A stretch of DNA of 41,552 nt from Candidatus Thorarchaeota archaeon (lineage in GTDB: Archaea > Asgardarchaeota > Thorarchaeia > Thorarchaeales > Thorarchaeaceae): contig JAUVHR010000001.1 of NCBI GenBank assembly GCA_030593165.1, positions 89,025 through 130,576 of the forward strand, written 5' to 3'. The notes below the pieces were generated by a model, which searched no databases, was not told the origin of the DNA, and worked only from the letters and a program-made list of their open reading frames with translations. The translations under genes were made by a program, and so were the position numbers. This document shows, piece after piece, positions 3,948-11,078 of the stretch (positions are counted from its first letter, which is position 1; every line of letters begins with the position of its first letter).

Positions 3948-4063
3948 TGGCGCTGAGGGAGGGATTCGAACCCTCGTGTGCTTAGCACACCAACTATCAG
4001 CCCGCCTACATTACGCGCCGGCGATTAGCAGGCTGGCTCCTTACCAGGCTAGGAAACCTCAGC
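3948..4063 (-). tRNA. tRNA-Ser (GCU) with a 30-nt intron, CCA encoded
   Basis: Read on the minus strand: a 7-bp acceptor stem GCTGAGG / CCTCAGC, D stem TCC/GGA with a GG-containing loop, anticodon stem CCAGC / GTTGG, loop C-T-GCT-A-A, a long variable arm (GTGC-TAA-GCAC core) and T arm GAGGG-TTCGAAT-CCCTC. The discriminator is G73, followed by encoded CCA. The class II variable arm, G73 and GCT anticodon (4029-4027) identify serine. The anticodon stem only closes properly if about 30 bases (4025-3996) are removed between positions 37 and 38, the canonical archaeal intron site. The intron can pair with exon 1 (CAGCC/GGCTG plus CGCC/GGCG), as expected for a bulge-helix-bulge substrate. Confidence 0.9.
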
Positions 4064-6618: not shown

Positions 6619-6719
6619 TTATCCCTAGCCCTCGAATCATATCGGGGCTTTCACAAGCCTAAAATAACAGACCAATTCGACAAGCTGTATCACAGACATC
6701 CAACAGTACGGTGAAACCA

Positions 6720-7382
6720 ATGGAACATTCACTTGTTATTATCAAGCCCGATGGGGCCTCACGTAGGAGAGTTGGTGCCCTAGTCTTGAAAGCCTTTCTA
6801 GCAAGGGGGTATGATATCAGAGCATTCAAGGAGATGAAGGTTTCAAGGTATTTGGCTGAGATGCACTATGCAATCCACAAGGAAAAGCCATTCTTCTCAT
6901 GGCTCGTGGATTTCATATCTTCTGCTCCAGTCTTGGTCATGATCTTTGAGGCCGAAAATGTAATTGAGGACATACGTACCGCTCTCGGTGTAACCTTCGT
7001 TCAGAAGGCTAATCCTGACTCACTCAGGGGTAAGTATGGCATCTGGGCTGGTGTCAACATTGCCCACGCATCTGATTCTCCCGAAACCGCTGCAAACGAA
7101 ATTGCCCTCTGGGCCAAGGAAGGCGACGTTGTAGAGTCAGATAACGCAAGAACCGCGGCTGAGGCCTACATTGCGAAGCACATCGCAAGTGGTACTGATT
7201 TCACAATGCAGATTCGAGATGTTGTTAAGAATGCCATTGCGAATCTTGATTCCTCTGACAGTGTACTGAAAACTCTCATTGACCTCTTTGGCAGGGATGC
7301 CGAGGGGATTTCCAAGGATGATACAGTAGCACTTGCTAAAGCAGTCCATGACTTTATTCTTGAGGAAATTGAAAAGAAATAG
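6720..7382 (+). CDS. ndk: Nucleoside diphosphate kinase with C-terminal extension
   Basis: Transfers the gamma phosphate between nucleoside tri- and diphosphates through a phosphohistidine. The domain is canonical: HSLVIIKPDG near the N-terminus, an HYAIHKEKPFF helix, RGKYGIW, and the active-site motif NIAHASDSPETA with the catalytic His (about residue 114). The kinase core ends near residue 150 (EIALWAKEGD). About 70 further residues are mostly helical and acidic/basic, unlike the usual short family tail. The start is the ATG at 6720, because GGTGA (6710-6714) precedes it; an in-frame GTG at 6711 is part of that site. The gene lies in its usual neighbourhood but on the opposite strand from L24e and infB. 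Confidence 0.95.
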   Translation: MEHSLVIIKPDGASRRRVGALVLKAFLARGYDIRAFKEMKVSRYLAEMHYAIHKEKPFFSWLVDFISSAPVLVMIFEAENVIEDIRTALGVTFVQKANPDSLRGKYGIWAGVNIAHASDSPETAANEIALWAKEGDVVESDNARTAAEAYIAKHIASGTDFTMQIRDVVKNAIANLDSSDSVLKTLIDLFGRDAEGISKDDTVALAKAVHDFILEEIEKK

Positions 7383-7393
7383 AATGAGAACGA

Positions 7394-7440
7394 GGTGGCA
7401 CACGATGCCACCCAGCTTCTCAATGACCCAGAACTGGGTC
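7394..7440. terminator. Bidirectional terminator-like hairpins between ndk and L24e
   Basis: Two consecutive inverted repeats separate the convergent genes: GGTGGC/GCCACC (7394-7412) and the perfect GACCCAG-AA-CTGGGTC (7425-7440), the latter running into the L24e stop codon. A pyrimidine-rich tract (TCTATCTTCTTGTCTT) follows on the plus strand. Confidence 0.5.
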
Positions 7441-7640
7441 TATCTTCTTGTCTTACCACCTTTCTGGTAAGCAGTACTCCACTTGGTGTCCCTTGGCTTC
7501 ATACTCCGCTTGAGTAATGCTACCTTACATTTGTTGGAACAAAACCATAGAACAGATCCATCCTTGGTTTGCACAAAGGCTGAACCTGTACCTGGTTCAA
7601 TATCATTCCCGCAGAAGATACACTTTTGCGTTCCAACCAT
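7440..7640 (-). CDS. rpl24e: Large-subunit ribosomal protein L24e
   Basis: A 66-residue zinc-binding ribosomal protein shared by archaea and eukaryotes. It has CIFCGNDIEPGTG followed by WFCSNKCKVALLKRSM, i.e. a CxxC...CxxxC zinc site, and ends in a basic tail. The start is the ATG at 7640, one base after the S28e stop. GGAGGC lies eight bases upstream, inside the end of S28e, so translation is probably coupled. It is the third gene of the L7Ae-S28e-L24e operon. Confidence 0.95.
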   Translation of the reverse strand: MVGTQKCIFCGNDIEPGTGSAFVQTKDGSVLWFCSNKCKVALLKRSMKPRDTKWSTAYQKGGKTRR

Positions 7641-7641
7641 G

Positions 7642-7872
7642 CTAGCGCCTCCGCATCTTCCGAGCTTCACGCTCTGTTTCTCGTAGTATCAGAATGTCTC
7701 CTTCCCGGACAGGACCTTTCACATTACGTGTGAGAACGCGTCCCTTGTCCCTACCTTCCAGAATCTTGACCCGTACCTGAGTGATTTCGCCAGTAACACC
7801 TGTACGTCCCAAGAGCTGGATTATTTCTGCAGGGATTTCTGGAGATTCTACTTGGTCATCTTTCTTGCTCAT
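7642..7872 (-). CDS. rps28e: Small-subunit ribosomal protein S28e
   Basis: A 76-residue OB-fold ribosomal protein. Recognisable parts are [24 protein letters not shown], then [32 protein letters not shown], the family's C-terminal signature. GGTGAT lies upstream of the ATG in the short gap after L7Ae. The S28e end contains the ribosome-binding site for L24e. Confidence 0.95.
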
Positions 7873-7897: not shown

Positions 7898-8269
7898 CTA
7901 TTTTCGCAGACCACTGATTTTCTCGACAATATCGTCGACTAGGTCCTTTGCTTTTCCATCAACTACGATTGCTACTGCAGCAGTAGGCCGTTCGATACCA
8001 GCTGCATTACCGAGGTCTCTCTTGCTCTTCACGAAGATATAGGGGGCCTTTCTGTCATCGCAGAGGCCTGGCAAGAACATGATTATCTCAGGCGGTTCGA
8101 CATCTTCAGCAATTACCACGAGCTTCGCAATACCACGCTCGATACTCTTTGTCGCTTCGTTGATTCCTTTCTTGATTCGACCCGTGTCCTTGGCGATTTC
8201 AAGTGCCTCAAGGGCCTTCTTCTGCAACTCTTCTGTTGCTTCCCATTCCACGAAAGATGGTTTTGGCAT
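7898..8269 (-). CDS. rpl7ae: Ribosomal protein L7Ae (kink-turn-binding protein)
   Basis: The archaeal L7Ae binds kink-turns in 23S rRNA, box C/D and H/ACA guide RNAs and RNase P. The 124-residue product shows GRIKKGINEATKSIERG, with the RNA-contacting N-E-T/K motif, IAEDVEPPEI, and GIERPTAAVAIVV near the end. The start is set at the ATG at 8269 (MPKPSFVEW), the family's usual N-terminus. An upstream in-frame codon at 8329 would add 20 atypical residues. It is the first gene of the L7Ae-S28e-L24e operon. The leader just upstream contains a kink-turn that overlaps the GAGGT ribosome-binding site, pointing to autoregulation. Confidence 0.95.
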   Translation of the reverse strand: MPKPSFVEWEATEELQKKALEALEIAKDTGRIKKGINEATKSIERGIAKLVVIAEDVEPPEIIMFLPGLCDDRKAPYIFVKSKRDLGNAAGIERPTAAVAIVVDGKAKDLVDDIVEKISGLRK

Positions 8270-8275
8270 TGTTTC

Positions 8276-8300
8276 TACCTCTGTTCTTACTTCATCGGTA
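8276..8300 (-). promoter_or_regulatory. Kink-turn in the L7Ae leader (candidate autoregulatory element)
   Basis: The mRNA reads UACC, then bulge GAU, then GA, a short A-GU-AAGA-AC-A cap, then GA, then GGUA. UACC/GGUA forms a 4-bp C-stem ending in C-G pairs. The three-base bulge NNU plus tandem sheared GA/GA is the k-turn consensus. The non-canonical side is short (an A.A, then two pairs and an AAGA loop). The 3' strand GA-GGU is itself the ribosome-binding site, seven bases from the ATG. L7Ae bound here would block initiation of its own operon. Confidence 0.7.
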
Positions 8301-8363
8301 TTAGTGAATACAGATTGAGATACACCCACTGCTGGGGTGCACTTCTGCGCCCCTTACGGTGCG

Positions 8364-8372
8364 TTCTTTTAA
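8364..8372 (-). promoter_or_regulatory. TATA box of the L7Ae operon
   Basis: On the minus strand TTAAAAGAA. Initiation about 25 bases downstream (near 8340) gives a leader of about 70 nt that includes the kink-turn. An inverted repeat, GGGGTGC/GCGCCCC (8334-8354), straddles the likely start site. Confidence 0.5.
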
Positions 8373-8413
8373 GGCTGTCGAACTGTGACCGGTTTTCCAA
8401 CCTGAAGAATCAC

Positions 8414-9436: not shown

Positions 9437-9602
9437 TGTTAAGCTCTTCCATCACGCGTCAAATACGATGATTCTCCCGTTATATTACGTAGATCATATA
9501 ATGAAAATCAACAGTGCGCCGTGTGAGAAGGAGCGAGTGTTTTCTCGGTAACACTAGACCATATACATCCATTCACAAATGACCCGCATGGAGTCGTGTC
9601 AG

Positions 9603-10100
9603 ATGACCCAGTACGTCAAGGTTGCTCTAATGGGGTCCGGTTTCGCTGGTAAATCAACACTAATCAAACTGCTTACTGATAAGATTGACACTCTCAAGAC
9701 GAACTATCAACCCACAGCTGGAATGGACTGTGGTACTATCACCCTTGACAAAATCACGAAAGTCGTCCTTGTGGAGATGGGCGGCCAGACACATTTTGAG
9801 TTCATGTGGCCTGATTTGTTACGGGGAAGCAAAATGGTGGTTGTAGTAACAGAGAGCACCCCAAAGGCTGTTCTCAAGACACGACAGCTTCTCAGCAAGT
9901 ACAAGGACCAGCTTGCAGGCATGCAGATTATTGCAGTCGCAAACAAGCAAGATATTCCTGGATCCATGAGGCCTGCGTCCGTCCAAGATCTTCTAGGTGT
10001 TCCAACCTACGGAATGGTTGCAGTGGACCCCAAACAACGAGTTCACGGCTATCGACTGATTGTGGAAGGGCTAAAGGGAATGGTCCAAATTGCAGGATAG
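9603..10100 (+). CDS. Arf-type small GTPase (eukaryotic-signature protein)
   Basis: A 165-residue Ras-superfamily GTPase. G1 is GSGFAGKST, followed by switch I QPTAG (conserved Thr), G3 EMGGQ, G4 NKQD (the Arf version) and an SVQDLLGVP region matching Arf helix 4. GGQ plus NKQD place it nearest the Arf/Arl/SRbeta group, which is abundant in Asgard archaea. Two points are odd. The Asp of the usual D-x-G-G-Q is Glu here. There is no N-terminal amphipathic helix, Gly2 or C-terminal lipidation motif, so membrane attachment, if any, is indirect. The start is set at 9603, because the TATA-like CATATACA at 9560-9567 would start transcription after the earlier in-frame ATGs (9579, 9588). Confidence 0.85.
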   Translation: MTQYVKVALMGSGFAGKSTLIKLLTDKIDTLKTNYQPTAGMDCGTITLDKITKVVLVEMGGQTHFEFMWPDLLRGSKMVVVVTESTPKAVLKTRQLLSKYKDQLAGMQIIAVANKQDIPGSMRPASVQDLLGVPTYGMVAVDPKQRVHGYRLIVEGLKGMVQIAG

Positions 10101-10277: not shown

Positions 10278-11078
10278 ATGGAAGTCACAATCCTTCACAA
10301 AGATGAGAATGTCATCCATTTCCTGTTGGAAGGTGTTGATGTGGCATTTGCGAACGCACTCAGGAGGACCATGATTAACCGACTGCCTGCAATGGCAATC
10401 GATGAGGTCCTAGTCCTTGAGAACACAAGTGTCATGTTCGACGAAATGCTAGCGCAGCGACTCGGTCTTATCCCCCTGACGACCGACCTAGACTCATACA
10501 ATCTTCCACGAAACTGTGACTGTGAAGGAAAGGGATGCAGCTTATGTCAATGCACACTCACCTTAGAGAAAGAGGCAGACGAAGAAGAAATGATTGTCTA
10601 CTCTGGCGATTTATCATCTCAGGATCCAAAAGTGATTCCTGCGACAGATGGGATTCCCCTAGTGAAGCTTGCTCCTCGTCAGAGCATAATCGTTGAGGCC
10701 TATGCTAGGCTTGGAACCGGTTCAGAGAATGCCAAGTTCCAGCCAGTTGCCACAGTGGCTTACAAGTATGTTCCTGTTGTTAGCGTAGACAAGACAAAGT
10801 GTGATCAATGCGGTGCCTGTGTGGAGGTATGCCCAAAGAATATCCTAATCATTGAGGGCGATACACTGTCTACTCAGAACACTCTGGACTGTAGTCTGTG
10901 TGAAATTTGCGTCAAAGAGTGCGAACCTAGCGCCATCATTATTGACTCCAAGAAGGATAGTTTTCTCTTCAAAGTAGAGTCCTCGGGTGCACTGCCTCCT
11001 GAGGAGATTGCAGAACGGGCAGCAGAGATATTGAAAGAGAGAATCAGAGTGGCACTTGATTTCACAAACTCGCTGTGA
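10278..11078 (+). CDS. rpo3: DNA-directed RNA polymerase subunit Rpo3 (D) with ferredoxin-like domain
   Basis: The alpha-like assembly platform of archaeal RNA polymerase, equivalent to Rpb3. The 266-residue product opens with VAFANALRRTMINRLPAMAIDEV, the alpha-type dimerisation motif. Residues about 75-95 hold a Cys-rich zinc-like loop (CDCEGKGCSLCQC). Residues about 170-220 hold a ferredoxin-like insertion with two 4Fe-4S motifs, CDQCGACVEVCP and CSLCEICVKECEP. Both look complete, so it is probably a cluster-containing D subunit. The C-terminus returns to the dimerisation helix. AAGGTG precedes the ATG by five bases. It heads the operon with L18e, L13, S9, Rpo10 and S2. Confidence 0.96.
   Translation: MEVTILHKDENVIHFLLEGVDVAFANALRRTMINRLPAMAIDEVLVLENTSVMFDEMLAQRLGLIPLTTDLDSYNLPRNCDCEGKGCSLCQCTLTLEKEADEEEMIVYSGDLSSQDPKVIPATDGIPLVKLAPRQSIIVEAYARLGTGSENAKFQPVATVAYKYVPVVSVDKTKCDQCGACVEVCPKNILIIEGDTLSTQNTLDCSLCEICVKECEPSAIIIDSKKDSFLFKVESSGALPPEEIAERAAEILKERIRVALDFTNSL

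Follow-up and report, generated by a model that had tools for sequence, protein, structure and literature searches.

Whether an archaeon of the Thorarchaeota controls the translation of its ribosomal protein L7Ae through a kink-turn (k-turn) in the leader of the mRNA is a question raised by a 25-nt element immediately 5' of the l7ae gene in a stretch of DNA of 41,552 nucleotides, here called the window. The gene (positions 7898 to 8269, minus strand, with its ATG at 8269) encodes a protein of 123 amino acids that scores 166 bits with the NCBIfam equivalog model TIGR03677 (50S L7Ae; cut-off 134.6) and matches archaeal L7Ae structures at E values down to 2.8e-43. Among named organisms, the closest relatives are Candidatus Thorarchaeota. 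The L7Ae (eL8) identity of the product and the Asgard lineage of the DNA, both of which had been proposed in a first-pass annotation made from the nucleotide sequence, are thus correct. The L7Ae protein of Archaeoglobus reads the k-turn by N33, E34, K37, and R41 (PMC6298567). These residues were matched by the motif KGxNExxKxxER, aligned by eye, to N37, E38, K41, and R45 of the window protein, which are invariant in 10 diverse Asgard proteins.

The l7ae gene is the first of a cluster, l7ae-rps28e-rpl24e, in which rps28e (7642 to 7872, minus strand; PRK04007) follows directly on the 3' side and is probably cotranscribed with l7ae, and rpl24e (7440 to 7637, minus strand) is third, with a PRK14891 score of 72.5 bits that lies just below the 73-bit cut-off. 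The order described in the literature for an Asgard archaeon is L7ae-S28e-L24e-ndk-infB; in the window, ndk lies on the opposite strand. This nucleoside diphosphate kinase gene (6711 to 7382, plus strand) is convergent to the l7ae cluster, and its product has about 80 extra C-terminal residues past the family model. Elsewhere in the window, a tRNA at 3951 to 4063 (minus strand), matched by Rfam and missed by ARAGORN, appears to be a tRNA-Ser(GCU) whose anticodon loop is interrupted by an intron. A small GTPase gene (9579 to 10100, plus strand) is located between the glycerol-1-phosphate dehydrogenase gene and the rpoD cluster, and RNA polymerase subunit D (10278 to 11078, plus strand) has a ferredoxin-like domain with two cysteine sets.

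Upstream of l7ae, a TATA-box-like sequence, CTTAAAAG (8366 to 8373, minus strand), lies 104 nt 5' of the ATG and is conserved in the family in both position and sequence, with most members having TTTTAAAAG. Folding predicts a hairpin (8321 to 8341, minus strand) near the expected 5' end of the leader, which would be roughly 80 nt long; most relatives have a hairpin of other sequence at the same place, with a conserved GCGNNRAGA-like stretch in the 15 nt before it. A second k-turn within this hairpin near the predicted transcription start site was considered and rejected because its 3' side has no consistent GA, and the GCGCAGRAGAG stretch before it was set aside because its genome-wide frequency is near background.

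The predicted k-turn hairpin occupies positions 8276 to 8300 of the minus strand, where the RNA reads UACC-GAU-GA-AGUAAGAACA-GA-GGUA, followed by GAAACA and the AUG. The canonical (C) stem consists of four Watson-Crick pairs between UACC (8300 to 8297) and GGUA (8279 to 8276), the 3-nt bulge is the U-ended GAU (8296 to 8294), and the tandem G.A/A.G pairs are formed by the GA at 8293 to 8292 opposite the GA at 8281 to 8280. The 3b:3n position is A.A, and the noncanonical (NC) stem has two pairs only, G-C and U-A (GU/AC), closed by the 4-nt loop AAGA. Six nucleotides separate the 3' end of the element (8276) from the start codon (8269 to 8267). The Shine-Dalgarno (SD) sequence is GAGGU (8281 to 8277, minus strand), 7 nt 5' of the start codon; its first two letters are the 3' GA and the rest belongs to the 3' C-strand, so that it overlaps both the tandem GA and the stem. 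The first-pass annotation had read this leader as a k-turn with the ribosome-binding site in its stem, and the strand, parts, and coordinates that it gave all stand. An independent k-turn scan of both strands of the window returns precisely 8276 to 8300. Strict matches, defined by a 4-bp Watson-Crick C-stem, a 3-nt U-ended bulge, GA/GA, and at least two NC pairs, number only three on both strands of the 41.5-kb window, so that the place of one of them before l7ae is already telling. As read from the sequence, the fold fits a simple k-turn. The predicted energy of the bare hairpin is near 0 kcal/mol, a kind of value that is unreliable for k-turns and that is consistent with a protein-dependent fold; an alternative predicted fold of the window leader is more stable than the k-turn. 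An AUG-AAG-UAA frame inside the k-turn was rejected as a candidate feature, since the box sequence itself generates it and the position of its stop is not conserved.

The arrangement CC-RAU-GA-n-GA-GG is present in all 46 distinct l7ae leaders of the family, which represent 13 genera (the listing has 47 rows, in which the window appears twice). No leader departs from the CC/GG pairs, the bulge AU, or the two GA steps; the stretch between the GA steps is 10 to 11 nt and once 31 nt, and the SD sequence lies 6 to 9 nt from the start. Loss of the GA/GA and bulge positions in relatives had been named beforehand as an outcome that would count against the k-turn, and they are kept throughout. In an alignment of 45 leaders, ten core positions are 100% conserved, and the mean identity is 88% over the 25-nt element, compared with 56% over the 30 nt upstream and 58% over the spacer between the SD sequence and the ATG. 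Conservation coincides exactly with the k-turn positions, the bulge and GA steps among them. With a covariance model of the element, the l7ae leaders of 14 out of 15 genomes score 36 to 42 bits, and every hit above 26.4 bits in the 15 genomes is an l7ae leader. The fifteenth leader (L005, genome G002) scores 21 bits owing to a long insert in its NC arm. By these sequence comparisons, the presence of the motif before l7ae is not due to chance. The variable parts of the element are the NC stem, whose U-A pair is missing in 6 of 24 distinct sequences, and the 3b:3n position, which is A.A, A-U, U-A, C.A, U.U, or A.C and mostly A:A or A:U; the -1b:-1n pair is C:G in all leaders of the family. L005 is the sole long form in the family, having a 31-nt NC part with a 7-bp hairpin. 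One assembly (G000:C13; L002 and L043) contains a second l7ae, 89% identical, with a leader like that of genus g6; this assembly is 6% contaminated, and the second copy therefore probably comes from another organism in the bin.

The first-pass annotation had also looked to covariation in the 4-bp stem for support, and here its expectation failed. No two-sided covariation occurs in the C-stem among the family leaders, and the covariation score of the family alignment is not above that of shuffles. Variation in the stem consists of U-A/U-G and A-U/G-U wobbles and two mismatches at the outermost pair. The absence of two-sided changes is expected, since one strand must remain a ribosome-binding site, and the pairing is consequently not proven from the family alone. 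Support for C-stem pairing comes instead from the differing stems predicted in other Asgard families, whose leaders the annotation had suggested searching. A scan near the start for a C-stem, a U-ended bulge, GA/GA, and either an NC stem or a short loop matches 28 of 54 leaders from these families, and about half of these leaders fail it. In 100 sets of shuffled leaders, the mean number of matches is 3.7 and the maximum 8; the values are 5.6 and 12 if the shuffling spares the 3' 18 nt. Both C- and NC-stems differ between Asgard families, a result of scan counts set against shuffles and not of a single alignment. The forms include one with a 4-nt bulge, UACC(UAAU)GA-AGGCAC..GUGCCC-GA-GGUG, three others, CCU(UAU)GA-GGGC..GCCU-GA-AGG, GGG(UAU)GA..GA-CCC, and AUACC(AAU)GA..GA-GGUAU, and a k-loop-like form, CC(GAU)GA-n5..9-GA-GG. 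In family f17, the NC stems are long and their sequences differ (GGCAC/GUGUC, GGCAC/GUGCC, and GGAAUUC/GAAUUCC). Many non-Asgard archaeal leaders carry the same boxes when inspected by eye, in agreement with the literature.

A k-turn in the leader of l7ae is a known regulatory element in archaea. In Sulfolobus, L7Ae binds its own leader and represses translation, and six further archaeal leaders gave repression in an Escherichia coli reporter (PMC5539422). The same study found the leader k-turn kept in most of the 121 archaeal species surveyed, and its main text names no Asgard archaeon (PMC5539422). The Archaeoglobus leader folds upon L7Ae binding and hides the ribosome-binding site, as supported by a crystal structure (PMC6298567). 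The first-pass annotation was therefore right to cite Sulfolobus, but the circuit was already better known than it supposed; its interpretation is supported as essentially right, and its novelty is lower than it thought. No description of the element in Asgard archaea was found in the open-access papers searched, exclusive of preprints, and those among them that treat this circuit make no mention of Asgard archaea.

The closest counterparts share the general design and differ in their details. In Sulfolobus acidocaldarius, as in the window, the k-turn lies by the SD sequence in the leader of the gene for the k-turn-binding protein, and occlusion has been proposed; there, however, the SD sequence precedes the Kt-b strand, whereas in Thorarchaeota it is made of the 3' GA and the 3' C-strand, and lineage and sequence also differ. 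In addition, nop5 is also a target in Sulfolobus, whereas the Thorarchaeota leader model finds no copy before other genes. The Archaeoglobus fulgidus leader shares the GAU bulge, the tandem G:A/A:G, the few stem pairs, and a ribosome-binding site that is occluded on binding, but its -1b:-1n and 3b:3n positions are C:A and A:U, compared with C:G and mostly A:A or A:U in Thorarchaeota. The k-turns of box C/D and U4 RNAs likewise have an nRU bulge followed by GA, a GA-ended partner strand, and binding by L7Ae-family proteins, but these belong to guide or spliceosomal RNAs, whereas in Thorarchaeota the element belongs to an mRNA leader and holds the SD sequence in its stem.

Taken with these precedents, the leader k-turn is very probably a device of L7Ae autoregulation, acting by negative feedback through occlusion of the ribosome-binding site, a function for which binding, bending, and repression are inferred. 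Support for this feedback comes from the sequence motif, which overlaps the ribosome-binding site and is strictly conserved, and from the encoded protein, which retains the residues that read a k-turn. When L7Ae is scarce, the hairpin would be too weak to hold alone, and the ribosome would use GAGGU. L7Ae present beyond its rRNA and guide-RNA sites would bind its own leader and bend the RNA into the k-turn, which would lock GAGGU in the paired 3' strand and lower l7ae translation. By published folding rules, C:G at -1b:-1n favors metal-ion folding, and none of the six leaders in that study has C:G (PMC6298567). As this pair favors ion-induced folding, the Thorarchaeota switch may be less cleanly protein dependent.

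The same C:G pair, which could permit folding with metal ions and without protein, lends something to another explanation, in which a genuine k-turn is bound by a different protein of the L7Ae/L30e family, or acts without L7Ae feedback as a standby site or constitutive brake. The genome does encode another L7Ae-family protein (PF01248 match), but the motif stands before l7ae itself, no other gene in 15 genomes is preceded by a comparable copy, every k-turn analyzed so far folds when L7Ae is added (PMC6298567), and L7Ae feedback has been demonstrated in other archaea (PMC5539422), which together make this explanation improbable. In the nop5-fibrillarin leaders of 14 family genomes, where the start codons are uncertain, the motif model finds no copy, and no RAUGA...GAGG arrangement was seen by eye before these genes; nor does such an arrangement occur in the 70 nt before the L30e-like gene of the same genome.

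Very improbable is the view that no RNA structure is involved and that the conserved stretch extends the ribosome-binding site, acts as a DNA element, or encodes additional N-terminal residues of L7Ae. It would account for the one-sided variation of the family C-stem, and in the window the l7ae frame stays open 5' as far as a GTG at 8329, by which start calling could be misled. In most relatives, however, in-frame stops occur within three codons 5' of the start, the conserved positions fall on the parts of a k-turn, including its bulge and GA steps, L005 retains both strands around the 31-nt stretch containing its hairpin, and other Asgard families have the same architecture with other stems. 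The resemblance of RAUGA and CUGA to boxes C and D might suggest part of a C/D box guide RNA overlapping the leader, but the boxes are only 10 to 11 nt apart, C'/D' boxes and space for a guide are absent, a family-wide guide would also keep its spacer, which varies, and Rfam finds only tRNAs in the window; such a guide RNA is extremely improbable. L7Ae feedback thus remains the preferred reading, and it would extend a known mechanism, unchanged, to Asgard archaea.

A broader proposal, which we regard as speculative and somewhat doubtful, is that the ancestor of Asgard archaea already had the leader k-turn and that it has since been rebuilt in different ways: as a k-turn with a 4-nt bulge and a long NC stem, as a k-loop lacking an NC stem, and, fixed in Thorarchaeota, as a form with the SD sequence in the C-stem and C:G at -1b:-1n, which might also be responsive to metal ions. 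If this is true, the L7Ae feedback loop would have operated throughout the lineage that is nearest to eukaryotes, and the variety of its forms would show the rebuilding of such a switch around an unchanging protein. Because the element is strictly kept across an entire Asgard family, the feedback loop is a solid prediction, and the Thorarchaeota leaders and their L7Ae proteins are ready RNA-protein pairs for testing. Its conservation in a family of Asgard archaea, the group closest to eukaryotes, suggests that L7Ae feedback is old in archaea.
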